Below are positions 9,101 to 48,000 of a stretch of 64,000 bases of DNA, in pieces. Position numbers and translations under genes: made by a program. The notes beneath the pieces are model-generated. The model searched no databases. It saw only the letters and a program-made list of their open reading frames with translations, and had not been told where the DNA came from. Position 1 is the first letter of the stretch. Each line of letters begins with the position of its first letter. The stretch lies in the NCBI GenBank assembly GCA_036874045.1, contig CM072342.1, forward strand, positions 270,501 through 334,500. Reading direction: 5' to 3'. This stretch comes from Cymodocea nodosa (taxonomy: Eukaryota; Streptophyta; Magnoliopsida; Alismatales; Cymodoceaceae).

Positions 9101-10465
9101 GCCTATCCACAAAGAATGGGGAGGACTGGAGGTGCCAAGAGCCCAAGGGTTAGTTAGAAAATGTGTGGGTGAATGATAAAGTCCTGGCAGATGGAAATAA
9201 ATGCATTGGTGGTGGGGTTTTGGTTTAAATTTCTCTTTTTTCAAGAAAGGGAATAGGAGTTTGGAAGGTATTGGATCTGTCTAAATGGTTTAGTGTAGGT
9301 GAGACAATCAATGAAAAAAATAGGGAAGGACACTAATATAGGTATGAATGAATTTTTGGCCATGCAACACAAGACACTTCCCCTGAGGCATCTAAATGTG
9401 CCTCTGTCCCTGGACTGCAACCAGAACAACTCCCATCTTATTGACACAAAGCCTTCATTTGTGACCTTCTGAAGTGCTTTAACCGTTCCTTTTAAGAAAT
9501 TTACTTGTTGAAGTTTGTCAAATAGGAATTCTGTATAGTAACGTAATGTTCACTCTCAGATTGTTCCAGCTAGATAAATAATTCTTTTTCATTCTCTGTT
9601 GGTCCTCAATTTTCTGATTTTCATGGTTGTATACTTGAAGAATGAATGCCTTCTAGTGATTGGGCATGGCCCATTGTACACGCTTTGCAGGGTCAAGTAA
9701 TACTGACCATTCTTCTGTTAACGATGATGAATGGAAACAACGTCTTACAAATGAGCAATACTACATAGCTCGGCAAAAGGGTACTGAAAGGGCTTTCACT
9801 GGGTATGATGTCTTCAGTCGTCCATAACCCTTGTGTTGTTTTCTTGTGGCATCTGCGATTCAGGAGGCTTGGTTTCTCTACCATCCTTGACAAGTTAACA
9901 CTTACTCTTCACTACATTATCAACTACAGGGAGTATTGGAACACCAAAAGTCCCGGAACATACCACTGTATCTGCTGTGATACACCCCTGTTTGAGTAAG
10001 TACTGTTTTACACGGATGATCTCCCGAGTGTTGTAAAAACCTTTCAACCATTCTTTCTGATTTTACTTGATGATTTCCGATGTGAAAAATGTTCGATGTT
10101 TATTTTGGTTGTTCAGATCAACCACAAAATTTGACAGTGGAACTGGGTGGCCATCTTACTATCAACCGATGGGAGACAATGTAAAGTCGAAGACTGACTT
10201 GTCAATCGTTTTTATGCCACGGCAAGAAGTTCTTTGTGCTGTTTGTGATTGCCATCTCGGCCATGTTTTTGATGATGGGCCGCCACCTACAGGAAAGCGA
10301 TACTGCATAAACAGGTGATGGTTTTCACTTCTCTATCTGCATTCTGTAATTCTTCCAGTTCTGTTAGTGTTAGTCTTGACCATGTTCCAAATTTGATGTT
10401 ATTAGTCATAACAATGGTTTTTTATTCCATCCAGTGCATCCTTGAAGCTGAAGCCACGGCAATGA
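6148..10465 (+). CDS. MSRB1: Plastid peptide methionine-(R)-S-oxide reductase, MSRB1 type
   Basis: Five exons, 6148-6394, 9691-9802, 9930-9995, 10117-10314 and 10435-10465, join with GT-AG borders and consistent phases into 217 residues. The enzyme reduces methionine-R-sulfoxide in oxidised proteins. Residues 1 to about 65 form a serine- and arginine-rich plastid transit peptide. The SelR domain follows, from about 94. Zinc-binding CxxC pairs are C133/C136 and C182/C185. The catalytic cysteine is C205 in RYCINS. The position that is cysteine in two-cysteine MSRBs (FDSGCGWP) is threonine here (T151 in FDSGTGWPS), which is the hallmark of plant MSRB1. The domain order and wording match Arabidopsis MSRB1 from memory. 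A second in-frame ATG at 6184 is an alternative start. Intron 1 is 3.3 kb and carries old transposon sequence (separate entries). The coding exons look intact. Confidence 0.9.
7250..8660 (-). mobile_element. Decayed copia-type LTR element fragment in MSRB1 intron 1
   Basis: On the minus strand, 7254-7475 reads as a copia gag fragment ([20 protein letters not shown]), and 7479-7661 as a further gag-like piece. A primer-binding-like stretch GGTATCGAGGC lies near 8450, so the LTR would be to its right. The element is a broken, old fossil. It sits in the intron antisense to MSRB1 and is interrupted by a TRIM at 7779-8357. Confidence 0.5.
7779..8357 (-). mobile_element. TRIM-like miniature LTR retroelement nested in the copia fragment
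   Basis: Two direct repeats of about 250-270 bp flank only about 60-70 bp. On the minus strand each repeat starts TGTTGGGGTGCC and ends CAATCCTRACA. The short middle holds a primer-binding-like site (TAATATCAAAGCC, near 8085-8105) and a purine tract (GAGAGGAGGGGGA, near 8040) directly before the second repeat. This is the arrangement of a terminal-repeat retrotransposon in miniature, with no coding capacity. I see no matching target duplication. Confidence 0.6.
8661..9690. other. Remainder of MSRB1 intron 1
   Basis: AT-rich intron sequence. I recognise no gene, repeat family or RNA here. The intron ends in a good acceptor (TTTGCAG) at 9684-9690. Confidence 0.4.
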
Positions 10466-11394
10466 GCATATCGTCCTAATTCACGAAGGCCTCAAGAAAT
10501 GCAAGGAGATGTCTGATACGTAGGAAGAAAATACCCATGTATAATAAGTACTGTGTTATATCTGTAATGCTGACCTTGAACATATGCGAGTACCTTAGAC
10601 CTTCCTTATCTTCCAATTTAGCATAACTACCATAGCAATCGCAAGGATTGCAAGAATAGGATTTTATGGTGGCACCGATCTATCAGTTCTGGTTTCTTTC
10701 TCGGCCAATATTCTGAGCGGGCGATCCAAAGGTGGATTCATGGATATTTGCAGAAACTGTTCCAATCATTCTTTGAAATTTAATATAGAAAAGTGGAAGG
10801 AAATATTACAAAGTTCCATAATATTTCAAAAGATTAAATCAACTAAAATATTTTTGATCTTTTGTAATTTGAAATTGAACAGAATTGATGATTGTTTCTT
10901 TAGGTACGATAACCAGGCCTTCCATACGTACTCGACATTACATCGAGGTGGGTTTCTAACTTTTTTTTTTCCGATTAAATAGAGATGAGGTGCAGACATC
11001 TTTCATATATGTAAAAATAAAATAAGTGGATATTTCTCGCATAAAGTTACTTGTGGAGATGCCTTGCAAGATACGTGTGCTGAGTCAAAAATATTTACGC
11101 ATATTGCAAAGAATTGCAAAAAATTAGATCAACATTAAGATATGTGCCAATCATATAAATAATAATAACCAATTATTTTTTGTAATTTATAGACTACCTT
11201 ACCTTAAGCAATATCCAACGTACGACATTGCCATCATCAAATAATTTAGCTGAAAAAATTCTTCGAAGTAGAAAAGGAAAGAAAAATCTGATGTACAATG
11301 CAATCAGCCACCTATGACGACATTTCTTGATGACTCCGAATTCCTATACCATCTACGTGTGTCCACCTCAATAAAATAAAAAACAAAGCAATCA
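10466..11394. other. MSRB1 3' end and spacer to the LHCB1 array
   Basis: The left end is the MSRB1 3' UTR. The rest is AT-rich and without recognisable coding sequence. An AAAAATCT at 11282-11289 matches the CCA1-binding consensus but lies 430 bp from the first LHCB1 gene, so its role is doubtful. Sequence shared with the other LHCB1 promoters begins near 11395. Confidence 0.4.
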
Positions 11395-11718
11395 GCACAA
11401 AAAAAAAGGGCCATCGGCAAGGAGTGAAGTGATGTGATTGGCGGATGAGAAGAGAAATCCTGGACAAGTCATCTACACCACAAGTCCACCGCAGGCAGCA
11501 AAAAATCGAAGCGTTCGTGTGGCTGCGAGTGAGCGGCACCGGAGACCATGAATCTGGTGGGCGAATGAGAGAAGCCATAAAGATTTTCTCAGGGTAAGGA
11601 ACGATCCATCTTCTCCGACTTGCTTGCCTATATCATCTACCGCCCACGCACCACAACCCAACCAAGCACGTCCATCGCAAGCACGTCTATCCATCGCCAC
11701 CTAGCAAACACCATCACC
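11395..11718 (+). promoter_or_regulatory. LHCB1 copy 1 promoter, both GATA motifs altered
   Basis: The promoter has an inverted CCAAT (ATTGG, 11437-11441) and a TATA box CTATATCA (11628-11635), 91 bp before the ATG. The two GATA/I-box motifs kept by the other five copies (GATAAAG and GGATAAGG) read CATAAAG (11576-11582) and GGGTAAGG here. The distal promoter homology seen upstream of copies 2, 3, 5 and 6 is absent. The GATA pair between CCAAT and TATA is a conserved light-response feature of LHCB promoters, so copy 1 may be regulated differently. Confidence 0.6.
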
Positions 11719-12519
11719 ATGGCCGCCGCCGCCGCCACCACCATGGGCCTCTCCTCCCCCTCCCTCAGCGGGAAGGCGGTCAGGCTTGGTCCCTCGGCCT
11801 CCAATGTCCTGGGCGGCGGAAGGGTCACCATGAGGAGGGGTACCGCCAAGCCCTCCGACAGCCCGTGGTACGGCCCCGACCGCGTCAAGTACCTGGGCCC
11901 CTTCTCCGGCGAGTCCCCCTCCTACCTCACCGGTGAATTCCCCGGCGACTACGGGTGGGACACGGCAGGCCTCTCCGCCGACCCCGAGACCTTCGCCAAG
12001 AACCGGGAGTTGGAGGTGATCCACGCCAGGTGGGCCATGCTCGGCACTCTGGGCTGCGTCTTCCCGGAGTTGCTCTCCCGCAACGGCGTCAAGTTCGGCG
12101 AGGCCGTGTGGTTCAAGGCGGGGTCCCAGATCTTCAGCGACGGTGGTCTGGACTACCTGGGCAACCCAAGCCTGGTCCACGCCCAGAGCATCCTCGCCAT
12201 CTGGGCCACCCAAGTCATCCTCATGGGGGCGGTGGAGGCCTACCGCGTCGCCGGCGGACCCCTGGGAGAAGTCGTGGACCCCCTCTACCCGGGCGGCAGC
12301 TTCGACCCCCTGGGACTGGCTGACGACCCCGAGGCGTTCGCGGAGCTCAAGGTGAAGGAGATCAAGAACGGCAGACTGGCCATGTTCTCCATGTTCGGCT
12401 TCTACGTCCAGGCCATCGTCACCGGCAAGGGACCCCTGGAGAACCTTGCCGACCACCTTGCGGACCCCGTCAACAACAACGCTTGGGCGTACGCCACCAA
12501 CTTCGTACCCGGCAAGTGA
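11719..12519 (+). CDS. LHCB1: LHCB1 copy 1, light-harvesting chlorophyll a/b protein of PSII
   Basis: This is an intronless 266-codon gene. LHCB1 binds chlorophylls a and b, lutein, neoxanthin and xanthophyll-cycle pigment and forms the major trimeric LHCII antenna in the thylakoid. Residues 1 to about 38 are the plastid transit peptide. Mature landmarks are the trimerisation motif WYGPDR (50-55), helix B with [10 protein letters not shown] (99-108), and helix C with [10 protein letters not shown] (214-223). These include the conserved E, H, N and R chlorophyll ligands. The C-terminus is [21 protein letters not shown] and FPELLSRNG favour LHCB1 over LHCB2 or LHCB3. The first ATG is the start. 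Residues 43-45 are AKP, and the protein is identical to copies 5 and 6. Third-position GC is far above the surroundings, which accounts for long shadow frames on the other strand. Confidence 0.97.
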
Positions 12520-12935
12520 GCTGTCAGCATGCGTACTGCCAGAAGGTCCTTGTCGCGCCATGAACATGGGAAGCAAGCAAGCTCCCATGTATTGAGCCAA
12601 CAGGTTAAATATCGAATGCCGTCGTTATGGCAGGTGGAATACGTGGGACAGCTGGCAATATGTATGTGGCTAGTGGATGGCGGCTAGTTGTAAATTTCTG
12701 AATGATAAATGACATTGATGTCTCCACTCTACGTCTCAGCCTTCATCTTCCTTCTCTTTTTCTTCCTGAAACCGTCATCGTAACGTTCGCCTAATTTTCG
12801 TTCCATGGAATCCTTGGATCTAACGTCTAAAATGATAAACCTACTGCAACTTTCCCTTCTCTTCCACTATCATTTAGCTCACGCCTTTCCTCAACAAATA
12901 ACCAGAATGACATATATATCTTGCCTGGTCTGTCC
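12520..12935 (+). other. Conserved 3' flank of LHCB1 copy 1
   Basis: About 400 bp after the stop is shared with all six copies, including a TTGTAAATTTCTGAATGA stretch near 12690 that suits plant 3'-end signals. The shared tract then continues as spacer sequence with ACTGCAACTTTCCCTTCTC. Confidence 0.6.
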
Positions 12936-13445
12936 ACCTTCCACGGAGGATGATCTTTTTTGTCCTTTATTTATTTTACAAGAACCTTGATTTAGTTTTC
13001 CCACTTAATCTCATTAGGATTTGTGGAGGAAAAGAGAAAAAGAAAACATTGATCTCCACTGTGTGCAATTTAGGGATGTTCTTTCCATCCCGGATCTCCA
13101 CTATTTCTCTGATTCGTGCTGTCTACCTTCACCAATCGGTAGTATTGGATACATCACTAGGAAAAAAGTTGATAAACTTGTCCTTAGATGGATATGAGCT
13201 ATTAATGAATGGTCTTAAAGACCATGAGAAGAAGAAACAGGTGGAGGGGAGGAGGCATAGTCAACAAATTTCTCTTTTCCCCTGTATTGAAGGCCGTCAG
13301 ATTTAATGTCCGATAGTTATAAATGGTGGTGAAGGAGTCGTTAGGGTAGAGGGAGGGGTCCTTGACTCTTATAAATAGAGGTGGACAAATGAAGAAATTC
13401 ATCCCAACACAAAAGGAAAAAACCCACAACTTACCTCATACGAGC
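12936..13445 (+). repeat. Repeat shared with the spacer behind LHCB1 copy 4, LTR-like
   Basis: This stretch matches 27640-28160 closely. It ends in a promoter-like segment with TATAAATAG (13370-13378), like the U3/R part of an LTR. The part near 13065-13165 also resembles the flanks of copies 2, 3, 5 and 6 (GATGTTCTTTCCATCC). It has no intact gene. Confidence 0.45.
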
Positions 13446-15114: not shown

Positions 15115-15915
15115 ATGGCCGCCGCCGCCGCCACCACCATGGGCCTCTCCTCCCCCTCCCTCAGTGGGAAGGCGGTCAGGCTTGGTCCCTCGGCCTCCAA
15201 TGTCCTGGGCGGCGGAAGGGTCACCATGAGGAGGGGTACCACCAATACCTCCGACAGCCCGTGGTACGGCCCCGACCGCGTCAAGTACCTGGGCCCCTTC
15301 TCCGGCGAGTCCCCCTCCTACCTCACCGGTGAATTCCCCGGCGACTACGGGTGGGACACGGCAGGCCTCTCCGCCGACCCCGAGACCTTCGCCAAGAACC
15401 GGGAGTTGGAGGTGATCCACGCCAGGTGGGCCATGCTCGGCACTCTGGGCTGCGTCTTCCCAGAGTTGCTCTCCCGCAACGGCGTCAAGTTCGGCGAGGC
15501 CGTGTGGTTCAAGGCGGGGTCCCAGATCTTCAGCGACGGTGGTCTGGACTACCTGGGCAACCCAAGCCTGGTCCACGCCCAGAGCATCCTCGCCATCTGG
15601 GCCACCCAAGTCATCCTCATGGGGGCGGTGGAGGCCTACCGCGTCGCCGGCGGACCCCTGGGAGAAGTCGTGGACCCCCTCTACCCGGGCGGCAGCTTCG
15701 ACCCCCTGGGACTGGCGGACGACCCCGAGGCATTCGCGGAGCTCAAGGTGAAGGAGATCAAGAACGGCAGACTGGCCATGTTCTCCATGTTCGGCTTCTA
15801 CGTCCAGGCCATCGTCACCGGCAAGGGACCGTTGGAGAACCTCGCCGACCACCTTGTGGACCCCGTCAACAACAACGCTTGGGCGTACGCCACCAACTTC
15901 GTACCCGGCAAGTGA
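15115..15915 (+). CDS. LHCB1: LHCB1 copy 2, light-harvesting chlorophyll a/b protein of PSII
   Basis: An intact, intronless 266-codon LHCB1 with the same domain layout as copy 1. Residues 43-45 are TNT instead of AKP, which removes the only lysine near the mature N-terminus. Residue 248 is valine where the other five copies have alanine, in the lumen-to-C-terminal stretch HLVDP. The 3' part carries the silent CCGTTG form at codons 239-240, as in copies 5 and 6, although its N-terminal type is shared with copies 3 and 4. Copy 2 is therefore a mosaic. Start choice: first ATG, 91 bp from the TATA box. Confidence 0.97.
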
Positions 15916-19563: not shown

Positions 19564-20974
19564 TATAATGGTTAGAACATTTCTTGCATTTTTTCCACTT
19601 ATATAACTTAGATGAACTCAAATAGAAATTCCACATCGAGATAAAAAGGTTTTGTTTTAACTTTTTCACCTATTGCCAATACTTTTAAGCTTTATTACCG
19701 ACAAAGCCATACTTCTGAACGCAGTTATAATATTATTCAGTTGTTATCATTATAAGAATATATAATTGTTATATTATCATTATATAATAATATTATTGTT
19801 ACGTACAGTTAGTATATGACAGTTATCGTTATATAATAATTATTATTATATAATGTGCTGAAAACTATTATTTCAGCTGACTATTATCTGAAATATACTC
19901 TAAAAGAGAATATATATAAACCGAAAACTATCTATTATATGAGATCTCCACTTATGCTTTTTCCTAAATTCCTTGTTAGCGCAAAAAATGTATTTAGCCG
20001 AAGATCATGTCAATGCTTAAGTTTTAATTAAATAAAAGTAAATACACTTACCAAAGTGTTAATTAATTAAGTAGTCACGATGTTCTACGCAATAATTTAT
20101 ACAAAAAAATTAAGAATATTATCGTCAATATTTTCGTTTTATAAAAGTGAAGTCGACAAGAATACAAAAGTCATGCATTAAAAAGAGAAAAATGCTATTG
20201 TTGACATTTACAATATTTTATTATAAAAGTTATCGATTTAAACGTAATTATCGTCGAACATCGTTTAATAGATCCAAATGAGACGCGGAGTTGCAAAAAA
20301 GAGAAATGCACCTATTGTTAAAGGTAAGATGATCAACTATACTTTTGTGAATTGCACGTTTTTCGTAATTTTTACTTGTACAATTACATAACTCTTATAA
20401 ATCGCATAATTTCCTATTTATGCAGTTACAATCTTACAAAATTTTTGCTATTATTCGTAAACTTTTGCTCTCACTCATGTAAACGTACGGTTCTCATGTA
20501 CGTGCACGGTGCTGAGACTGTCCATGTAACCGTTGCTTCCACTTCCCGCACTTACCCTCATGAAGTCGTGGTATGGTAAATACGCACAGTTAATCTAAGA
20601 GAAATGTCTACAATCATTAGTTGTGAACGTTAACGATGCAAAAAAAAAAACACACACACACAATGGCTTCGGCTAGGATTGAAGTGATGTGATTGGCGGA
20701 CGAGAAGAGAAATCCTGGACAAGTCATCTGCATCACAAGTCCACCGCCGACAGCAAAATCATCCAAGGGTTCGTGTGGCTCCGAGCGAGCGACACCGGTG
20801 ACCATGAATCTGGTGGCCGAACGAGAGAAGCGATAAAGATTTTCCCAGGATAAGGATGGGTCCATCTTCTCCGACTTCTTTGCCTATATCATCTACCGCC
20901 CACTCACCACAACCCAACCAAGCACGTCCTTCGCAAGAACGTCTATCCATCGCCACCTAGCACACACCATCACC
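19564..20974 (+). promoter_or_regulatory. LHCB1 copy 3 promoter and duplicated upstream block
   Basis: The whole 1.4-kb block aligns with 39290-40564 upstream of copy 5, and its right part with 42200-43278 upstream of copy 6. Proximal motifs are ATTGG (20692-20696), GATAAAG (20832-20838), GGATAAGG (20848-20855) and the TATA box CTATATCA (20884-20891). A poly(A)-(CA)n tract lies at about 20639-20662. The G-box position reads TACGTG, which keeps the ACGT core. Confidence 0.65.
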
Positions 20975-21775
20975 ATGGCCGCCGCCGCCGCCACCACCAT
21001 GGGCCTCTCCTCCCCCTCCCTCAGCGGGAAGGCGGTCAGGCTTGGTCCCTCGGCCTCCAATGTCCTGGGCGGCGGAAGGGTCACCATGAGGAGGGGTACC
21101 ACCAATACCTCCGACAGCCCGTGGTACGGCCCCGACCGCGTCAAGTACCTGGGCCCCTTCTCCGGCGAGTCCCCCTCCTACCTCACCGGTGAATTCCCGG
21201 GAGACTACGGGTGGGACACGGCAGGCCTCTCCGCCGACCCCGAGACCTTCGCCAAGAACCGGGAGTTGGAGGTGATCCACGCCAGGTGGGCCATGCTCGG
21301 CACTCTGGGCTGCGTCTTCCCGGAGTTGCTCTCCCGCAACGGCGTCAAGTTCGGCGAGGCCGTGTGGTTCAAGGCGGGGTCCCAGATCTTCAGCGACGGT
21401 GGTCTGGACTACCTGGGCAACCCAAGCCTGGTCCACGCCCAGAGCATCCTCGCCATCTGGGCCACCCAAGTCATCCTCATGGGGGCGGTGGAGGCCTACC
21501 GCGTCGCCGGCGGACCCCTGGGAGAAGTCGTGGACCCCCTCTACCCGGGCGGCAGCTTCGACCCCCTGGGACTGGCTGACGACCCCGAGGCGTTCGCGGA
21601 GCTCAAGGTGAAGGAGATCAAGAACGGCAGACTGGCCATGTTCTCCATGTTCGGCTTCTACGTCCAGGCCATCGTCACCGGCAAGGGACCCCTGGAGAAC
21701 CTCGCCGACCACCTTGCGGACCCCGTCAACAACAACGCTTGGGCGTACGCCACCAACTTCGTACCCGGCAAGTGA
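20975..21775 (+). CDS. LHCB1: LHCB1 copy 3, light-harvesting chlorophyll a/b protein of PSII
   Basis: An intact, intronless 266-codon LHCB1 with TNT at residues 43-45 and alanine at 248. The trimerisation motif WYGPDR and the helix B and C pigment-ligand motifs are as in copy 1. It is identical in nucleotide sequence to copy 4, including flanks, over 20614-22172 (fixed offset 5,439). It shares a private silent variant (GAATTCCCGGGAGAC) with copy 4 only. The C-terminal silent form is CCCCTG at codons 239-240, as in copy 1. Confidence 0.97.
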
Positions 21776-22545
21776 GCTGCCAGCATGCGTACTGCCAGAA
21801 GGTCCTTGTCGCGCCATGAACATGGGAAGCAAGCAAGCTCCCATGCATTGAGCAAACAGGTTGAATATCGAATGTCGTCGTTATAGCTGGTGGAATACGT
21901 GGGACAGCTGGCAATATGTATGTGGCTAGTGGATGGCGGTCGGTTGTAAATTTCTGAATGATGAATGAAAATGATGTCTCCATTCTACGTCTCAGCCTTC
22001 TCTTTTTCTTCCTGAAACCCGTCATCGTATCATTCGCCTAATATTCGATCCATGGGGTCCTCCTTTGGATCTAACGTCCAAAATGATATACCTACTGCAA
22101 CTTTCCCTTCTCTTCCATTATCATTTAGCTCACTCCTTTCCTCAACAAATAACCAGAATGACATATATATCTCGCCTGGTCTGCCCAATTTCGGGATGTT
22201 CTTTCCTTCCATGATCTCAACTGTCCTTGGGAAAGTCTGGCCAGGTTATGACTGAGCCTTTAGCTGTGTATCACAGAGGCGAAATTGGTATTGGTAGCAA
22301 CTAGGGTTGGAAGAGGCCAATGCAAGTAGCATTTAACATCATTAGGAATTTCGTGAGTGTCAGATTAGTCAAACCCAACCAGGGCAATGAGGGACCGACG
22401 ATCCCTGAAACATTTGTAGAGGCTACTAGTTGAGATGCCCTTTGTTGTTGAAGAGATGACCAAGCCTGGTACACCTCCTGTTGCTGAGGAGAGGGTGGAG
22501 AAGAGAGCAGAGAATGCAACACCCTCTGTTGCCTCTAGCGAGGAG
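21776..22545 (+). other. 3' flank of LHCB1 copy 3 and truncated gag-like block
   Basis: The conserved 3' flank runs to about 22190. It is followed by a partial copy of the gag-like block seen behind copy 2. Homology stops abruptly at about 22545, where unrelated sequence begins. Confidence 0.55.
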
Positions 22546-24119
22546 TAAATATGGGTTTGTGCACTTGAAGACCTTGGCAAAAGAAACGGGAGGAAATATT
22601 TTCCTAAGGTCTCCTCATTTGTGCACATAGGTAATCTTGGGAAATCATTTCTTAAGATTACCCACGTATAAAAATCACTTCTGGACATCATTTCTTGACC
22701 TCCCTCTTTTGTAACGTCGGGTAAGCTTGAGAAAATCGATCTTTGATACTATCGCTCAAAGTCAATCTTGCAAAGTCCGATTTTGTCGACACCCCAACCT
22801 CGACAGAGAAGCCTTCCAACGCCTCACACCTGAGTCGACAAAGAAGCCTTTCCTAATTCTTCCATCGCATTACCTAAAGGTCGCCATTGTCGCTTGAACC
22901 TGCCACTGTCGCTCGAAGCCACCATTGTCACCTGAACCTGCCTTTGTCGCTCGAAGCCGCCACTATCGCCATTGTTGCCCAAAGATGTTGCAATCGCAAC
23001 CTTGAGATCGCCATTGTCACTCGAAGCCACCACTATCGCTCGATGCCACTGTTGTCGTCCGAAGGTCTATGCTAGTAAATCCCCTCCCCTGATTGTTTAA
23101 TCACAGTATATACAGTTTTTTGAGAAATGTCATTGTTCTTCTGTTCTATTATTTCATTGATTCATTGATTTATATTACTGTGTTACCTGAAGGTTGCTAA
23201 TTTGTATTATTGTATCGCCCGAAATCTAAATATATTTGTATTACTGTATTCTTAATTTACACGCTAAATGCATTATAAGTTGTGTTATAAGATCATTTGT
23301 TGTATTGTTATGTTATTCTTATACTCCTACACTTTCTCATTTTCAAATTGCACACCAAATAGATGTATCTATGCTACTTCTACCAGTTTTATGTTATATG
23401 GTGATTGATTTGTTAAATAATGACATGCTTCACTACAATGGTGACTACTTTATTGAATGCATATAATCTTAATTTGTTGAATTTGTTCAATGCTTCAATA
23501 ATTTTAAGATTCTCATCATTTGTTGAATGTGCATAATCTTGATTATGCATAATTTGAGAGATATGTAATTTGAACTGAACATAGAATTTAACTTGTACGA
23601 TGTTGGTTCGTTTTTGTTGATTGTAAACCTATAAGTTGATTGTACAATAAGCATTTCCATTTATTGATCTCCATAGTTGTTAGCTTGCTCTCCATCAACA
23701 CTAGATACTTGAATTAGAAAGTAGTGCTAAAGAAGTTAGTCGATCAAATTCCTTTTAAATATAGTTTTTCCTTTTAAATTTTCTTTTCTTTCTTGGTTCC
23801 TATAGTCCATTCTACTTTCCCTTACTCATTTGTAGTTTCTTAGGTTTATGAAAATGGATTACTCATTTTGAGTTAGTTACTCATTTTTATGTTGTTGCAT
23901 GTATTAGGTTTTGTTTTAGATGTTTCTATTATGAAACTCAAATTTTGAATTAGCATGGCTGTACCATTTGATTTCAATTATTATGATTTCAGCTATTTTA
24001 TGGTAATGGGTCATTGTTTATTTATCTTTTAACATTACACCATCACTAAAATTAAACATAGTATAGGAAATATGACCTTTGAAAAAAAGAATTACATGAA
24101 CTAGAGCATAAAATAAAAT
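22546..24119. other. Spacer behind LHCB1 copy 3, unassigned
   Basis: This stretch starts with possible LTR-like sequence, including a hairpin GGTAATCTT...AAGATTACC near 22631-22663. A cytosine-rich minisatellite follows (separate entry), then AT-rich sequence from 23100 on with no recognisable gene. Confidence 0.35.
22865..23060 (+). repeat. Minisatellite of about 18-21 bp units
   Basis: Imperfect units around CCATTGTCGCTYGAAGCC recur about nine times. Codon-length spacing gives incidental open frames on both strands. Confidence 0.6.
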
Positions 24120-25035
24120 AAATTTTTTTTAGGTATATTAGCATTAGAAATAATAGAAGGAAATGCAAAACAACAAGATGGTAAGCTTAGAGTGGAGACA
24201 TGGGTAAAGGTGATTGTCAAATATAATGCTCAAACAAATGCCAATGTTGAAAAAAAAAACATGTGAAAAGTAGAATGAAAACCTAGAGGACAATGTATAA
24301 AAATTATACAAAGATTTCAAAGCAAAATAGAAGGGGGTGAGATTATATTCATAGCCATACTAATATATTGAAGGAAATATGGGATGAATTGTTCAATATT
24401 TTATTTCATTACATGTAACACATTTTTAATATAACTTGTTAATAATAGTAGACTATTTATATGTTTTCTTTGTAGCAACATCCAAAACGTAAATCATGTA
24501 CAAGAAGGTTATGTCCTATCTATGATGACTTATATATAATGTTCGATGACAATATGACTACTAGAGTGAATAGTCAAATTCTCCAAGATGTACAATAAAT
24601 GTAAGAGAATGGAACTCAAAAACTTGAAGACACCATTCCCACTTTCAATACTTAGCTTCCTCCATCAATTCTTGAATTCGAAGAGGGCCAAGGAAGCCCT
24701 AGCATTTGTAACGTGGAGCAAATAGTTAGTAGAAAGGAAAAGAAAAGAACTTGACCTTATATAGAATTTTCTCAATCTATTGTAAAGTTAATAAATGAAA
24801 AAAGTGAGTTTGTGAAAAAGTTTGTGCAATAGGATGAACTAGCTTATCAGAAGTTTAAATTAAGAAGAGAAACAGAACAATGTATTCCATACTTGATGAA
24901 AATAGGACTTACTAAGGGGAAAAAATTCACTAGGGTTCAATTGCAAGAAAATGAGATGAAAAGAACTATTTTCCTATCATTAGAGATTGATGAATATCAA
25001 ATTGAATGGTTGCACTACAATTTGAAGGAAAAGTG
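24120..25035 (+). mobile_element. Probable PIF/Harbinger MYB/SANT-like ORF remnant
   Basis: Broken plus-strand frames give, in order, a segment like the trihelix/MYB domain of Harbinger-linked proteins (VETWVKVIVKYN near 24190), then CPIYDDLYIMFDD (near 24510), then a lysine- and glutamate-rich C-terminal part (near 24760-25030). The CP-x-Y-D/E-L-x-x-x-F pattern is typical of L10-interacting MYB-domain proteins and Harbinger ORF2. Several stops interrupt it, so it is a pseudogene or dead DNA transposon. No transposase or terminal repeats are seen. Confidence 0.4.
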
Positions 25036-25985
25036 AATTGTTTTGTTGTATTTGGAATAATATGTGAACTCTTCAATTGTATTATGTCCTTATGTTGGTA
25101 GTCTTTAGAAGTAGTGAATGTGTTATCTTTTGTTTTTTCGTAATATGTTTTCTTTCCCAAATTCTTATTTCATTATGAAAGTTTCTATTGTTGAACGTGA
25201 TTTACACACATAAAAGAATGTTGAAATTTGCAAGTACGTAGTGGTTGAAATGTTTAATAGGTTATTACATTATATGTTGATATTTAAGTGTTGAAATGTC
25301 CTCTACTTGTACAAGTGATTCTACATATGGTAAATAACTAAGGATATGTTGAAAAGAGATGATGAAGACAATGTAGGTCTTTAATATTGATTGTATAAAC
25401 GTGTAAATTAGCAACACAATATATTACAGATGTTACTCTAAACATAATAAAATAGATCTATAATAGAGAATGACAACGATATAACATGAGATTATGAGAT
25501 GCATCACTACCTCACCAACCATATCATTATCGAAATATATATTAAATGAGTCAACATGTTTTTTAGGAACTTTGTAACTTACTTAGAAGACAAAGGATAG
25601 TAAAAGATAATTAATGTGTTATTGTTGAGGATAAACTAGTAATATTTCTTGTTACAATTGAACAAAATCAAAGATATGAAGTTACTATTGAACATTTTCA
25701 TCGATTTACTTAAACAATTAGTTTATATTTTATTGAGATTGTAAATGTAATCTAAAGAATATAAGATTTAATTATAGTAAATTTTTCATCATCAATATAG
25801 TAAAATTCAAAATCATGTAAATGTCTTTCCATATTTTAAGATTAGAAGTGAATTTTATTTTATTTAAATTTTTTAAATTTGACATTGTATTATTGATATT
25901 CTATTTGATTTGATGTTATTAATAGTACACATGTAAATGTAATAATTTATAAGAAAAAAAATAAAAGATAAAAGAAAATGCAAGA
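25036..25985. other. AT-rich spacer before LHCB1 copy 4
   Basis: I see no gene or clear repeat. Homology to other LHCB1 upstream blocks resumes near 25990. Confidence 0.4.
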
Positions 25986-26413
25986 TCCACGTAACCGTTG
26001 ATTCCACTTCCGTCACTTACCGTCATGAAGTCGTGGAACGGTAAACACACACTCATTAGTTGTGAACGTTAACGATGCAAAAAAAAAAACACACACACAC
26101 AATGGCTTCGGCTAGGATTGAAGTGATGTGATTGGCGGACGAGAAGAGAAATCCTGGACAAGTCATCTGCATCACAAGTCCACCGCCGACAGCAAAATCA
26201 TCCAAGGGTTCGTGTGGCTCCGAGCGAGCGACACCGGTGACCATGAATCTGGTGGCCGAACGAGAGAAGCGATAAAGATTTTCCCAGGATAAGGATGGGT
26301 CCATCTTCTCCGACTTCTTTGCCTATATCATCTACCGCCCACTCACCACAACCCAACCAAGCACGTCCTTCGCAAGAACGTCTATCCATCGCCACCTAGC
26401 ACACACCATCACC
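25986..26413 (+). promoter_or_regulatory. LHCB1 copy 4 promoter
   Basis: ATTGG (26131-26135), GATAAAG (26271-26277), GGATAAGG (26287-26294) and the TATA box CTATATCA (26323-26330) are intact and identical to copy 3 from 26053 on. The distal block with the G-box region is missing, so the shared upstream sequence is only about 430 bp. Confidence 0.65.
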
Positions 26414-27214
26414 ATGGCCGCCGCCGCCGCCACCACCATGGGCCTCTCCTCCCCCTCCCTCAGCGGGAAGGCGGTCAGGCTTGGTCCCTCGGCCTCCAAT
26501 GTCCTGGGCGGCGGAAGGGTCACCATGAGGAGGGGTACCACCAATACCTCCGACAGCCCGTGGTACGGCCCCGACCGCGTCAAGTACCTGGGCCCCTTCT
26601 CCGGCGAGTCCCCCTCCTACCTCACCGGTGAATTCCCGGGAGACTACGGGTGGGACACGGCAGGCCTCTCCGCCGACCCCGAGACCTTCGCCAAGAACCG
26701 GGAGTTGGAGGTGATCCACGCCAGGTGGGCCATGCTCGGCACTCTGGGCTGCGTCTTCCCGGAGTTGCTCTCCCGCAACGGCGTCAAGTTCGGCGAGGCC
26801 GTGTGGTTCAAGGCGGGGTCCCAGATCTTCAGCGACGGTGGTCTGGACTACCTGGGCAACCCAAGCCTGGTCCACGCCCAGAGCATCCTCGCCATCTGGG
26901 CCACCCAAGTCATCCTCATGGGGGCGGTGGAGGCCTACCGCGTCGCCGGCGGACCCCTGGGAGAAGTCGTGGACCCCCTCTACCCGGGCGGCAGCTTCGA
27001 CCCCCTGGGACTGGCTGACGACCCCGAGGCGTTCGCGGAGCTCAAGGTGAAGGAGATCAAGAACGGCAGACTGGCCATGTTCTCCATGTTCGGCTTCTAC
27101 GTCCAGGCCATCGTCACCGGCAAGGGACCCCTGGAGAACCTCGCCGACCACCTTGCGGACCCCGTCAACAACAACGCTTGGGCGTACGCCACCAACTTCG
27201 TACCCGGCAAGTGA
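26414..27214 (+). CDS. LHCB1: LHCB1 copy 4, light-harvesting chlorophyll a/b protein of PSII
   Basis: An intact, intronless 266-codon LHCB1, identical to copy 3 in DNA and protein (TNT at 43-45). The identical tract runs 26053-27611. Left of it the flank differs from copy 3. Right of it the flank switches to the type found behind copy 1. This looks like a conversion tract or unequal exchange, with assembly duplication as the technical alternative. Confidence 0.97.
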
Positions 27215-27611
27215 GCTGCCAGCATGCGTACTGCCAGAAGGTCCTTGTCGCGCCATGAACATGGGAAGCAAGCAAGCTCCCATGCATTGAGCAAACAGGT
27301 TGAATATCGAATGTCGTCGTTATAGCTGGTGGAATACGTGGGACAGCTGGCAATATGTATGTGGCTAGTGGATGGCGGTCGGTTGTAAATTTCTGAATGA
27401 TGAATGAAAATGATGTCTCCATTCTACGTCTCAGCCTTCTCTTTTTCTTCCTGAAACCCGTCATCGTATCATTCGCCTAATATTCGATCCATGGGGTCCT
27501 CCTTTGGATCTAACGTCCAAAATGATATACCTACTGCAACTTTCCCTTCTCTTCCATTATCATTTAGCTCACTCCTTTCCTCAACAAATAACCAGAATGA
27601 CATATATATCT
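27215..27611 (+). other. 3' flank of LHCB1 copy 4, identical to copy 3
   Basis: The 3' UTR and flank are identical to 21776-22172. The sequence changes at 27612 to the copy 1 type. Confidence 0.65.
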
Positions 27612-28216
27612 TGCCTGGTCTGTCCAATTTATGTTGGATTTCCTTCCGCGGAGGATGATCTTTTTTGTCCTTTATTTATTTTACAAGAACCTTGATTTAG
27701 TTTTCCCACTTAATCTCATTAGGATTTGTGGAGGAAAAGAGAAAAAGAAAACATTGATCTCCACTGTGTGCAATTTAGGGATGTTCTTTCCATCCCGGAT
27801 CTCCACTATTTCTTTGATTCGTGCTGTCTACCTTCACCAGTCGGTAGTATTGGATACATCACTAGGAAAAAAGTTGATAAACTTGTCCTTAGATGGATAC
27901 AAGCTATTAGTGAATGCTCTTAAAGACCATGATAAGATGAAATAGGTGGAGGGGAGGATGCAACAATTAACAGTTTTCTCTTTTCCCCTACATTGAAGGT
28001 CGTCAGATTTAATGTCCGTTGGTTATAAATGATGGTGAAGGTGTCGTTAGGGCTGAGGGAGGGGAGGAGGGGTCCTTGGCTCTTATAAATAGAGGTGGAT
28101 GAATGAAGAAATTCATCCCAACACAAAAGGAAAAAACCCACAACTTACCTCATCGGAGCCCCAAAGTTCTTCAAAATCTTCTTCTTTGGCACCGACAATC
28201 TGTAGTGGTATCAAAG
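27612..28216 (+). repeat. LTR-like repeat with primer-binding-like site
   Basis: This repeat matches 12936-13445 behind copy 1. It has a TATAAATAG (28084-28092) like an LTR promoter and ends with TGGTATCAAAG (28206-28216), close to the initiator-tRNA primer-binding site of copia elements. A plus-strand 5' LTR followed by leader is the simplest reading. Its left border is uncertain because part of the sequence also belongs to the LHCB1 flank. Confidence 0.4.
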
Positions 28217-40564: not shown

Positions 40565-41365
40565 ATGGCCGCCGCCGCCGCCACCACCATGGGCCTCTCC
40601 TCCCCCTCCCTCAGCGGGAAGGCGGTCAGGCTTGGTCCCTCGGCCTCCAATGTCCTGGGCGGCGGAAGGGTCACCATGAGGAGGGGTACCGCCAAGCCCT
40701 CCGACAGCCCGTGGTACGGCCCCGACCGCGTCAAGTACCTGGGCCCCTTCTCCGGCGAGTCTCCCTCCTACCTCACCGGTGAATTCCCCGGCGACTACGG
40801 GTGGGACACGGCAGGCCTCTCCGCCGACCCCGAGACCTTCGCCAAGAACCGGGAGTTGGAGGTGATCCACGCCAGGTGGGCCATGCTCGGCACTCTGGGC
40901 TGCGTCTTCCCGGAGTTGCTCTCCCGCAATGGCGTCAAGTTCGGCGAGGCCGTGTGGTTCAAGGCGGGGTCCCAGATCTTCAGCGACGGTGGTCTGGACT
41001 ACCTGGGCAACCCAAGCCTGGTCCACGCCCAGAGCATCCTCGCCATCTGGGCCACCCAAGTCATCCTCATGGGGGCGGTGGAGGCCTACCGCGTCGCCGG
41101 CGGACCCCTGGGAGAAGTCGTGGACCCCCTCTACCCCGGCGGCAGCTTCGACCCCCTGGGACTGGCGGACGACCCCGAGGCATTCGCGGAGCTCAAGGTG
41201 AAGGAGATCAAGAACGGCAGACTGGCCATGTTCTCCATGTTCGGTTTCTACGTCCAGGCCATCGTCACCGGCAAGGGACCGTTGGAGAACCTCGCCGACC
41301 ACCTTGCGGACCCCGTCAACAACAACGCTTGGGCGTACGCCACCAACTTCGTACCCGGCAAGTGA
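40565..41365 (+). CDS. LHCB1: LHCB1 copy 5, light-harvesting chlorophyll a/b protein of PSII
   Basis: An intact, intronless 266-codon LHCB1. The protein is identical to copies 1 and 6 (AKP at 43-45). It shares the silent GAGTCTCCC with copy 6 and the CCGTTG form at codons 239-240 with copies 2 and 6. The 5' UTR is 15 bp shorter than in the other copies, because one of the repeated GCACGTCYATC-type segments is absent. The first ATG is the start. All pigment-ligand and trimerisation motifs described for copy 1 are present. Confidence 0.97.
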
Positions 41366-43278: not shown

Positions 43279-44079
43279 ATGGCCGCCGCCGCCGCCACCA
43301 CCATGGGCCTCTCCTCCCCCTCCCTCAGCGGGAAGGCGGTCAGGCTTGGTCCCTCGGCCTCCAATGTCCTGGGCGGCGGAAGGGTCACCATGAGGAGGGG
43401 TACCGCCAAGCCCTCCGACAGCCCGTGGTACGGCCCCGACCGCGTCAAGTACCTGGGCCCCTTCTCCGGCGAGTCTCCCTCCTACCTCACCGGTGAATTC
43501 CCCGGCGACTACGGGTGGGACACGGCAGGCCTCTCCGCCGACCCCGAGACCTTCGCCAAGAACCGGGAGTTGGAGGTGATCCACGCCAGGTGGGCCATGC
43601 TCGGCACTCTGGGCTGCGTCTTCCCGGAGTTGCTCTCCCGCAACGGCGTCAAGTTCGGCGAGGCCGTGTGGTTCAAGGCGGGGTCCCAGATCTTCAGCGA
43701 CGGTGGTCTGGACTACCTGGGCAACCCAAGCCTGGTCCACGCCCAGAGCATCCTCGCCATCTGGGCCACCCAAGTCATCCTCATGGGGGCGGTGGAGGCC
43801 TACCGCGTCGCCGGCGGACCCCTGGGAGAAGTCGTGGACCCCCTCTACCCCGGCGGCAGCTTCGACCCCCTGGGACTAGCGGACGACCCCGAGGCGTTCG
43901 CGGAGCTCAAGGTGAAGGAGATCAAGAACGGCAGACTGGCCATGTTCTCCATGTTCGGCTTCTACGTCCAGGCCATCGTCACCGGCAAGGGACCGTTGGA
44001 GAACCTCGCCGACCACCTTGCGGACCCCGTCAACAACAACGCTTGGGCGTACGCCACCAACTTCGTACCCGGCAAGTGA
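43279..44079 (+). CDS. LHCB1: LHCB1 copy 6, light-harvesting chlorophyll a/b protein of PSII
   Basis: An intact, intronless 266-codon LHCB1 whose protein is identical to copies 1 and 5 (AKP at 43-45). A private silent change (CTAGCG for CTGGCG, near 43876) separates it from copy 5. It lies 2.7 kb from copy 5, the closest spacing in the array, and shares the upstream block type of copy 5. It has the full set of promoter motifs and so is a good candidate for the main expressed AKP-type gene, which is inference. Confidence 0.97.
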
Positions 44080-44797
44080 GCTGTCAGCATGCGTACTGCC
44101 AGAAGGTCCTTGTCGCGCCATGAACATGAGAAGCAAGCAAGCTCCCATGTATTGAGCCAACAGGTTAAATATCGAATGCCGTCGTTATGGCAGGAGGAAT
44201 ACGTGGGACAGCTGGCAATATGTATGTGGCTAGTGGATGGCGGCCAGTTTTAAATTTCTGAATGATGAATGAAAATGACGTCTCCATTCTACGTCTCAGT
44301 CTTCATCTTCTTTCTCTTTTTCTTCCTGAAACCCGTCATCGTATCATTCGCCTAATATTCGATCCATGGAGTCCTTTGGATCTTATGTCCAAAATGATAT
44401 ACCTACTGCAACTTTCCCTTCTCAACTATATCTCGCCTGGTCTGTCCTTTGGCTCACTCCTTTACTCAACAAATAACGAGAATGACATATATATCTCGCC
44501 TGGTCTGTCCTTTGGCTCACTCCTTTCCTCAACAAATAACGAGAATGACATATATATCTCGCCTGGTCTGTCCAATTTCAGGATGTTCTTTCCATCCATG
44601 ATCTCAACTATATCCTTGATCCGTCCTATCTACCTTCACCAATCGGCAGTATTGAATACATCGCCAGGAAAACGAGCCGCTGTAGATCTGAGTATTCAAT
44701 CCATGATATATAGTTCGCTGTTCGATCGTCTGCTCAGCAATGTCAGAGGTAGTGGGAAGAGGAGACAGTAGAGTGCACCATTAGAGAGGACTGGTTG
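44080..44797 (+). other. 3' flank of LHCB1 copy 6
   Basis: The conserved 3' flank is followed by a tandem repeat (separate entry). A segment at 44577-44670 is shared with the repeats behind copies 1 and 4. After 44680 the sequence runs into retroelement leader. Confidence 0.5.
44425..44583 (+). repeat. 63-bp tandem repeat behind LHCB1 copy 6
   Basis: The phrase TATCTCGCCTGGTCTGTCC occurs three times at an exact 63-bp spacing (starting near 44429, 44492 and 44555). The units are nearly identical. Other copies have this phrase only once, so this is a local expansion. Confidence 0.75.
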
Positions 44798-45020: not shown

Positions 45021-48000
45021 GCAATCAAACCTAGAAGTAAATTGTTACGCGAAACTAATTCCTATGAATATGTTTGTTTCCCGCTTTATGTATGAAGGAG
45101 ACCCATGTTGTGTGATATCAAATTGCCACGTACAACCATAAGCAACATATTATATATAAGTGTTATGCAAAGATAAATGCGTAAAAGGTAGAGCTTGGAC
45201 TCATGGAGAATAAGAAATAAAAATAAGAGTAAAATCACACAATCAACACACGAATTTACATGGTTCTCTAATTAGGTATGTCTAGAGATGAAGGCTTAGC
45301 TGATTGGTTCTTCACTAGTTGATCAATAAATGAGATACAAGATTCATATGTCTATGCACACATTAAGAGCCTATTTATAACTTTGAGCATCCCATATGGT
45401 CAAAAGACCAAAATACCCTTACGTATATAACTAATTAATTCAAGACACATATTAACAATCTCCACTTTATCTTGAATTTACAAACTCCACCTAGAACCAA
45501 AAAATACTCCATCACAAAGACCCGAAGGGTCAGCTATATGCAAATACATTTAGTAAGTCTAAGCAATGTTTGAACTTGCTTTCAAGAACGCATTTTGTGA
45601 ATATATCAACTAGGTTGTCATGAGTATTGATCTTCAATATCTTCACACGTTTTTCAGTTCTAAGAAAGTGATAACGAATATCAATATGTTTTGTCCTGTC
45701 ATGAAATACATTATCCTTCGTCAAGCTGATGGCATTAAGAATGTCACAAAATATTTCTACCTTATCATATCACAGACCAAAGTCTCTAAGTAATCCCTTC
45801 AGCCAAATACCTTCTTTTGCAGCTTATGCTATTGCTATATACTCAACCTTTATGGTGGATAAAGAAACTGTAGGTTGTAGAGTAGATTTCCAATTGATAA
45901 TGGAATTTGCCATTGTAAAAACATATCTTGTCAAAAACCTACATTGATCAACATCACCTGCAAAATCTAAATCAGAATATCCAACCATATTATAGTTATG
46001 TTTAACTCCATAAATCAATCCTACATCAAACATGCCCTTCAAGTGTCTAAAAATTCTCTTCACAGCCTACCAATGACTCTTCCCTGGATTTGACATAAAC
46101 CTGCTTACAACACTAATGGGGTAAGCAAGATCTAGACGAGTACAAACCATGGCATACATTAGACTACCAACTGCCTGTGAATATAGAACTTTCTTCATGT
46201 ACTCCTGTTCCGATTGTGTCTAAGGTGCCATAGCAACTGATAATCGTAGGTTCCTATCATAAGGCGTTCCAATGACTTTGCTCGAAGCCATGCCAAACCT
46301 GCTTAAAATTTTCTGAACATAACTATGCTGATGGAGAAATAACCTTCCAATGTTCTTGTCACAATAAATCTCCATCCCAAGGATTTTACCTACTGGTCCT
46401 AAATCCTTCAATGCAAATTCAGACTTCAATGTGTCTTTCAAAAACTATATTTCATTGACATCTTTGGCTGCAATCAAGATGTCATCCACATACAAGAGCA
46501 AATAAACAAATTCATCATCTTTAATTTGTTTAATGTAGACACATAAATCAAAATTACTACGAACAAAACCAACATCTGTAATAAAAGAATCAAATCTTTT
46601 ATACCATGCCTAGGAGACTGTTTTAGGCCATACAAAGATTTCTACAATTTACAAATAAGGTTTGATTTACCCATTTCTGCAAAACCTGTTAGCTATTCCA
46701 AATATCTTCTTCTAAATTACCATGCAAAAAAACTATTTTCACATCTAGTTGCTCAAGTTCTAAGTCCTTTACTACAACAATTGCTAAAAGGACTCTAATG
46801 GAAGTGTGTCTCACTACTGGTGCAAAGACTTCATTGAAGTTCACACCTTCCTTCTATGAAAAATCTTTTGCTACCAATCTTGCCTTGTATTGAATTCCAT
46901 GATTGCCTTGTGTTTCTAATTTCTTTTTGAATACTCATTTGCAACCAACAACATTCTTGTCTTTAGGATGTTTTACCAATTCTCAAGTTCTATTCTTATG
47001 CAAAGATTGAAGTTCTTCTCGCATAGCTCCCATCCAATGTATGGCTTCTGATCCGCTAATAGTAGTATCAAAACTAGGTGGATCAGCATCTTCCACCTCA
47101 CTGGCTACTTGTAAGGAAAATGCAACCATATTATTGTAGCCATATTTTTGTAGAGGGTGAACATCCCTCCTAGGACGATCCTTAACAATATACCTTGGAC
47201 ATGTGTCCTCCACAAATTTGTCTCCATAGTCATCTTCCAAAATCAAACGTTGATTTGTATTACCTAGAACAAATTGATCAGAAATCAAAAGTTGATTTAA
47301 ATCAAGCTTCACCTACTTAGGAGTACTAGGTGGATCAGAAACTGTTGGCTTCTCTTTCACATGCATCAAAGAAACCTCATCAAAGGTAGCATCCTTGCTA
47401 TGAATGACCTTCGTTTCTTTACCATAAATTCTGTATCTTTTTACTCCCATACCATATCCCACAAAAATGCCTTCCTTAGCACACGGCTCCAATTTACCAT
47501 GATTCACATGGTAATAAGCAGGACATCCAAATACTTTCAACTTGGAGTAATTTGCAACTTTATCCATCCATACCTCATAAGGAATCTTGTCGCCAATAGC
47601 ATTAGATGGCGATCTATTCACTAAATAGGAGGCTGTGTTAATAGCTTTAGCCCAAAAATATTTTTCCAACCCAACATGTGAGAGCATACATCTAGCTCTC
47701 TCCAATAACATCCTATTAAGACGTTCTACAACTCCATTTTGTTGTGGAGTTTCCCTAACAGTATAATGTCTAGTTATGCCTGTATCTCTACAAAAAATGT
47801 CAAATTCATTTGAGTAGAATTCTAATCCATTATCTGTTCTCAAGTATTTTACTTTTCTCCCCACCTAGTTTTCAACTATAGTTTTCCACTATTTAAAGTT
47901 CGTAAAGGCCTCACTTTTATGCTTCATAATGAAAACCCAAGTCATATGATTGAAATCATCAACTATGGAGAGAAAATATCTGGAACCTACTAATGAGGGT

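Follow-up and report, generated by a model that had tools for sequence, protein, structure and literature searches.

A 1,559-nt identity between two tandem Lhcb1-type genes of Cymodocea nodosa, probably the product of recent gene conversion

Copies 3 and 4 of a tandem array of light-harvesting genes in Cymodocea nodosa are identical over 1,559 nt, through promoter, coding sequence (CDS) and 3' UTR, but they sit in different flanks. What kind of event makes two neighboring genes identical and leaves their surroundings unlike? The stretch analyzed here, called the window, is 64,000 nt long and corresponds to C14:270501-334500 in a genome of 374.6 Mb assembled into 28 contigs. Positions without a contig name are window positions. 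An earlier note on this DNA had proposed a very recent gene conversion tract or a double exchange.

The Lhcb1-type array and its surroundings

We searched the genome with the identical tract. On C14 it matches nine relatives at near full length, spread over 281.9 to 354.2 kb; C18 has one, and there are also weaker or partial matches. BLAST of the copy 3 CDS against 114 kb of C14, a region with no Ns, returned nine complete copies at 98.3 to 100% identity; the C18 copy is 98.5% identical. The C14 array thus holds nine complete Lhcb1-type copies in tandem, all in one orientation. The earlier note had counted six units, which is correct for the window, but the whole set is nine on C14 plus one on C18. 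The CDSs within the window are all on the + strand, at 11719 to 12519 (copy 1), 15115 to 15915 (copy 2), 20975 to 21775 (copy 3), 26414 to 27214 (copy 4), 40565 to 41365 (copy 5) and 43279 to 44079 (copy 6). The CDSs of copies 7, 8 and 9 start past the window end, at C14:337596, 348618 and 353025.

Copy 3 encodes an intronless chlorophyll a/b-binding protein of 266 aa, and copy 4 encodes the same protein from identical DNA. The array protein matches the chlorophyll a/b-binding domain PF00504 over the pigment-binding core with 172.9 bits against a cut-off of 22.3 (E = 1e-50 for copy 3). Among solved structures, the best full-length plant chain is 3jcu_G (537.9 bits). The top score overall belongs to 9vfj_2, a chain of 620 residues labeled LHCI-2, whose 562.7 bits are summed over two stretches. 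Against the chains labeled Lhcb1 and Lhcb2 within entry 9s1m, the protein scores 492.7 versus 452.3 bits. By these bit scores the array units are predicted intronless Lhcb1-type antenna genes, closer to Lhcb1 than to Lhcb2. We also looked for signs of GC-biased conversion. The third-position GC content (GC3) of the ten CDS copies is 0.895 to 0.910, in a window with a GC of 38%; two further Lhcb-like genes, on C12 and C1, have 0.813 and 0.803. Of 26 polarized changes inside the array, 7 are to GC, 13 to AT and 6 of other kinds; these are raw counts, and GC sites are far more numerous.

The array has also received mobile DNA. A long terminal repeat (LTR) retrotransposon insertion of about 19.3 kb lies between copies 6 and 7, from window position 45161 to C14:334980, past the window end. 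Its end repeats are about 300 bp long, are 89% alike, start with TG and end with CA, and a 5-bp duplication, ATAAG, stands on both sides. The C18 locus represents the uninserted site. The insertion carries copia-type gag and RVT_2 domains on the + strand, and RVT_1 with RNase H and a second copia-type gag on the - strand. The presence of domains on both strands suggests nested elements. Outside the array, an X8 domain reading frame (PF07983, E = 2e-18) occupies 201 to 746 on the - strand. Rfam at gathering thresholds and a tRNA scan found nothing in the window.

The identical tract and its two edges

Exact comparison confirmed the match that the earlier note had reported. On the + strand, 20614 to 22172 (copy 3) equals 26053 to 27611 (copy 4) over 1,559 nt, with a mismatch at the next base on both sides. 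The tract had been said to include the UTRs and the promoter, and indeed it spans 361 bp of promoter and 5' leader, the whole CDS, and 397 bp of 3' UTR and downstream DNA (UTR extents are approximate). We aligned the ten copies with MAFFT and compared the tract columns over all 45 pairs. Copies 3 and 4 differ at 0 of 1,558 aligned positions, MAFFT having set one base apart. The other 44 pairs lie between 14/1,400 (copies 5 and 9) and 91/1,557; taken over all 45, the median is 3.9%. Outside the copy 3-copy 4 pair, the longest exact run in any pair is 500 nt. Where the flanks of copies 3 and 4 can be aligned, over 67 bp on the left and 19 bp on the right, they differ at 11 of 86 positions, versus 0 of 1,559 in the tract (Fisher p = 4e-15). 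The tract is therefore a bounded stretch far more identical than the aligned flanks of the two paralogues. Given this test and the 14 differences in the closest other pair, we rejected chance as the source of the identity.

The left flanks had been described as different. They do differ, and further out they are unrelated. However, directly beside the tract the copy 3 flank (20521 to 20587, + strand) and the copy 4 flank (25986 to 26052, + strand) are still homologous, with 9 differences in 67 bp. Next to these lie 26 bp (20588 to 20613, + strand) that copy 3 has and copy 4 lacks, and this indel forms the left edge of the tract. In the ten-copy alignment, the 26-bp stretch is present in full or nearly so in copies 2, 6 and 8 and in the C18 copy. 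Beyond the 67 bp in copy 4 comes a dispersed repeat. A reading of the left side as plain non-homology is thus corrected to 67 diverged bp, an indel, and then the repeat.

This repeat, at about 22551 to 25980 and with an A-rich tail, makes up almost the whole spacer between copies 3 and 4. Searching the genome with 22600 to 26050 gave at least 104 matches on at least 16 of the 28 contigs, with 40 of 1,572 candidates scored. Among the matches listed, many share one end near window position 25976 and vary at the other end. With 22173 to 22700 as the query, homology to the gene family stops at 22545 and dispersed matches start near 22553. The shape of the repeat suggests a LINE-like element; its longest open stretch is 80 codons. 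Inspection by eye of its approximate ends revealed no clean target-site duplication.

On the right, the copy 3 flank (22173 to 22545, + strand) is common to copies 2, 5, 7 and 8, at 88 to 94% identity, and not to copy 4. The earlier note had copy 4 switching at 27612 to the type behind copy 1, and this holds. The copy 4 flank (27612 to 28153, + strand) differs from the copy 1 flank (12922 to 13439, + strand) at 7 of 282 positions in alignment columns 2390 to 2800, and the homology continues to 28153. Against copy 3, it differs at 138 of 246 positions, a figure from columns that are mostly non-homologous between the two copies. The copy 4 flank carries an insert of about 141 bp (27631 to 27771), with an AATTT motif on either side, at 27626 and at 27772. 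Most of this segment is present in copy 1 as well, but there it is 15 bp shorter at the segment start and the first AATTT motif is missing. Past the segment, copy 4 again matches copies 2, 6 and 8 and the C18 copy for 50 to 138 bp. The left flank of copy 1 (9800 to 11400) had no match elsewhere in a genome search and does not explain the flank types.

How one copy may have overwritten the other

We checked for high-identity flanks past the tract, which the earlier note had named as evidence against conversion. None was found: the left side has the 9/67 differences and the indel, and the right side has switched to the copy-1 type. A duplication or a single crossover should leave one near-identical flank, and none exists, so conversion or a double exchange is favored, in support of the original proposal. 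A single unequal crossover was rejected, because neither flank is shared at near-identity. The flank argument that had been raised against a whole-unit duplication is sound in that there is no near-identical flank on either side, but it is incomplete, since part of the left difference is a mobile-element insertion.

We consider it very likely that copies 3 and 4 had already diverged when a recent homology-directed repair event, probably a non-crossover conversion, overwrote one with the other, probably copy 4 with copy 3. The two copies would first have diverged as members of the nine-copy tandem Lhcb1 array. The repair event would then have copied the gene in full, promoter and 3' UTR included. 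The tract would have halted where unbroken alignability ends, at the 26-bp indel on the left and 19 bp short of the segment inserted in copy 4 on the right. This would be why the promoters, leaders, CDSs and 3' UTRs of the two copies are identical today. If breaks in homology limit conversion, both tract edges would thus be explained. The tract fills nearly all of the unbroken homology between copies 3 and 4. On the other side stands the outcome of a conversion test of the kind that the earlier note had called for, a GENECONV-like permutation on the shared core over 45 pairs. Copies 3 and 4 had a pairwise p of 0.0025 but a global p of 1.0, since almost all of the core is tract and only two differing sites among 136 are left. 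No pair was globally significant; the lowest global p over the 45 pairs was 0.08.

A double reciprocal exchange, or two successive unequal crossovers, might instead have placed the copy 3 core in a copy-1-type unit. The array is clearly rearranged: the DNA around copies 2-3 has long matches to that around copies 7-8, and from one part of the unit to the next the closest relative is a different copy. A single haplotype cannot separate a double crossover from a conversion. However, such a history would require two recent exchanges at a distance of about 1.5 kb, and we regard it as unlikely. A simple tandem duplication of copy 3 whose flanks were later replaced or lost gains something from the dispersed repeat, which now takes the place of the outer left flank of copy 4. 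Against it stand the diverged homologous DNA directly left of the tract (9/67 and the indel) and the copy-1 flank on the right of copy 4, and these make a duplication highly implausible.

The identity could also come from assembly or polishing, if one copy was corrected with reads of the other or if contigs were mis-joined. The tract is sharp-edged, there is no N nearby, and the ten very similar copies include no other identical pair (longest run, 500 nt; next pair, 14/1,400). In addition, the tract is short relative to long reads, if long reads underlie the assembly. We therefore give an artefact little credence, and return to gene conversion between copies 3 and 4.

Copy 3 is probably the donor and copy 4 the recipient, judging from their relatives within the array. 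The 3' UTR of the tract is nearest to copy 8 (6/332) and far from copy 1 (23/330), whose type of right flank copy 4 has, and copies 3 and 8 group together in the 3' UTR with a support of 96 to 99. Besides copy 4, copy 3 has its best long match in copy 8, at 95.4% over 2,146 positions, and the DNA around copies 2-3 matches that around copies 7-8 at 85 to 95%. Copy 3 therefore corresponds most naturally to copy 8, and this makes it the likelier donor. However, copies 3 and 8 hold together only at the borderline in the 5' part (approximately unbiased [AU] test, p = 0.05). Copy 3 is itself a mosaic, because the 5' part of the tract is nearest to copy 6 (16/361) and the 3' UTR to copy 8.

Substitution rates for dating are 7e-9 and 1.3e-8 per site and year. 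At these rates, 0 differences in 1,559 nt would place the 95% upper age of the event at about 0.14 and 0.07 million years, respectively. On the 758 non-coding bases alone, the limits would be 0.28 and 0.15 million years.

Older exchange in the array and its meaning

Copies other than 3 and 4 also bear marks of exchange. A PHI-type test on the nine copies without copy 4, with 50 informative sites, gave p = 0.0005, as low as 2,000 shuffles allow. Dropping the C18 copy as well gave the same p with 41 sites. The CDS tree of the copies has poor support, and the trees of parts conflict: copies 3 and 8, and copy 6 and the C18 copy, pair in the 3' UTR, whereas copies 3 and 6, and copies 2 and 7, pair in the 5' part. 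We ran AU tests of five clades against both parts. Five of these placements agreed with the best tree, and of the remaining five, three were rejected (1e-5 to 0.02) and two were not; the clades were picked after seeing the trees, which weakens the p values. In the 3' UTR, copies 3 and 6 together were rejected (p = 1e-5) and copies 2 and 7 were not (p = 0.09). In the 5' part, copies 5, 7 and 9 (p = 0.0006) and copy 6 with the C18 copy (p = 0.02) were rejected. The PHI-type test and the conflicting trees show older exchanges in the array, independent of copy 4.

Copies 5 and 9 (40565 to 41365 and C14:353025-353825) form a second, older gene-centered pair. They differ at 14 of 1,400 positions and share no outer flanks; their homology runs at 98.1% over 1,636 bp and ends beyond. 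The tenth Lhcb1 copy sits at C18:14755308-14759277, where about 4 kb align at 92 to 95% with copy 6 and the DNA ahead of copy 7. The remaining nearby matches between C14 and C18 are at about 66 to 82%, and their order is not simple. The C18 copy may thus reflect an exchange between chromosomes. A 63-bp tandem repeat in the 3' region has 2.3 units in copy 6 (44427 to 44573) and at least 4 further units beside the C18 copy (C18:14756817-14757057); the identical tract has one unit, at its right edge.

More tentatively, whole functional units of promoter, leader, CDS and 3' UTR could be the regular unit of exchange in this array, because indels repeatedly break homology outside the gene. Under such whole-unit exchange, copies 5 and 9 and the C18 copy would go back to earlier events of this type, the one on C18 having crossed between chromosomes. 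If this reading is true, cassette-wise conversion would keep expression, beyond the protein alone, uniform.

Arabidopsis has Lhcb1.1 to Lhcb1.3 on chromosome 1 and Lhcb1.4 and Lhcb1.5 on chromosome 2 (PMC8940271). The two systems share several near-identical clustered genes, mature proteins that are identical or nearly so, and a second locus on another chromosome, but the array here has nine complete copies in the same orientation, and one pair of them also matches exactly in promoter and 3' UTR. LHCB1 has likewise expanded by tandem duplication in two shade-dwelling Begonia species (PMC7612470). Gene conversion has been suggested for another set of tandem photosynthesis genes, the rbcS genes of Solanaceae (PMC1852302). 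There a stronger effect on the coding than on the 5' non-coding sequence has been suggested, whereas the promoter and 3' UTR were copied too in the Lhcb1 pair. Exchange between loci among plant paralogues, both tandem and distant, is also seen at Arabidopsis RPP8, where intergenic conversion is reported to be stronger between distant than between tandem copies, although those are resistance genes (PMC6771003). Among the papers listed in our literature searches, in a library with few subscription journals, none dealt with gene conversion in an Lhcb1 array.

This kind of event is well known from families whose members are kept alike, and the pair adds a case rather than a new principle. It is an unusually clean natural case of recent homogenization among photosynthesis genes: both edges are resolved, and one copy is a plausible donor. 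Short reads cannot separate copies 3 and 4 over the 1,559 nt. Because the copying took in the promoter and 3' UTR, the two genes are expected to behave alike.
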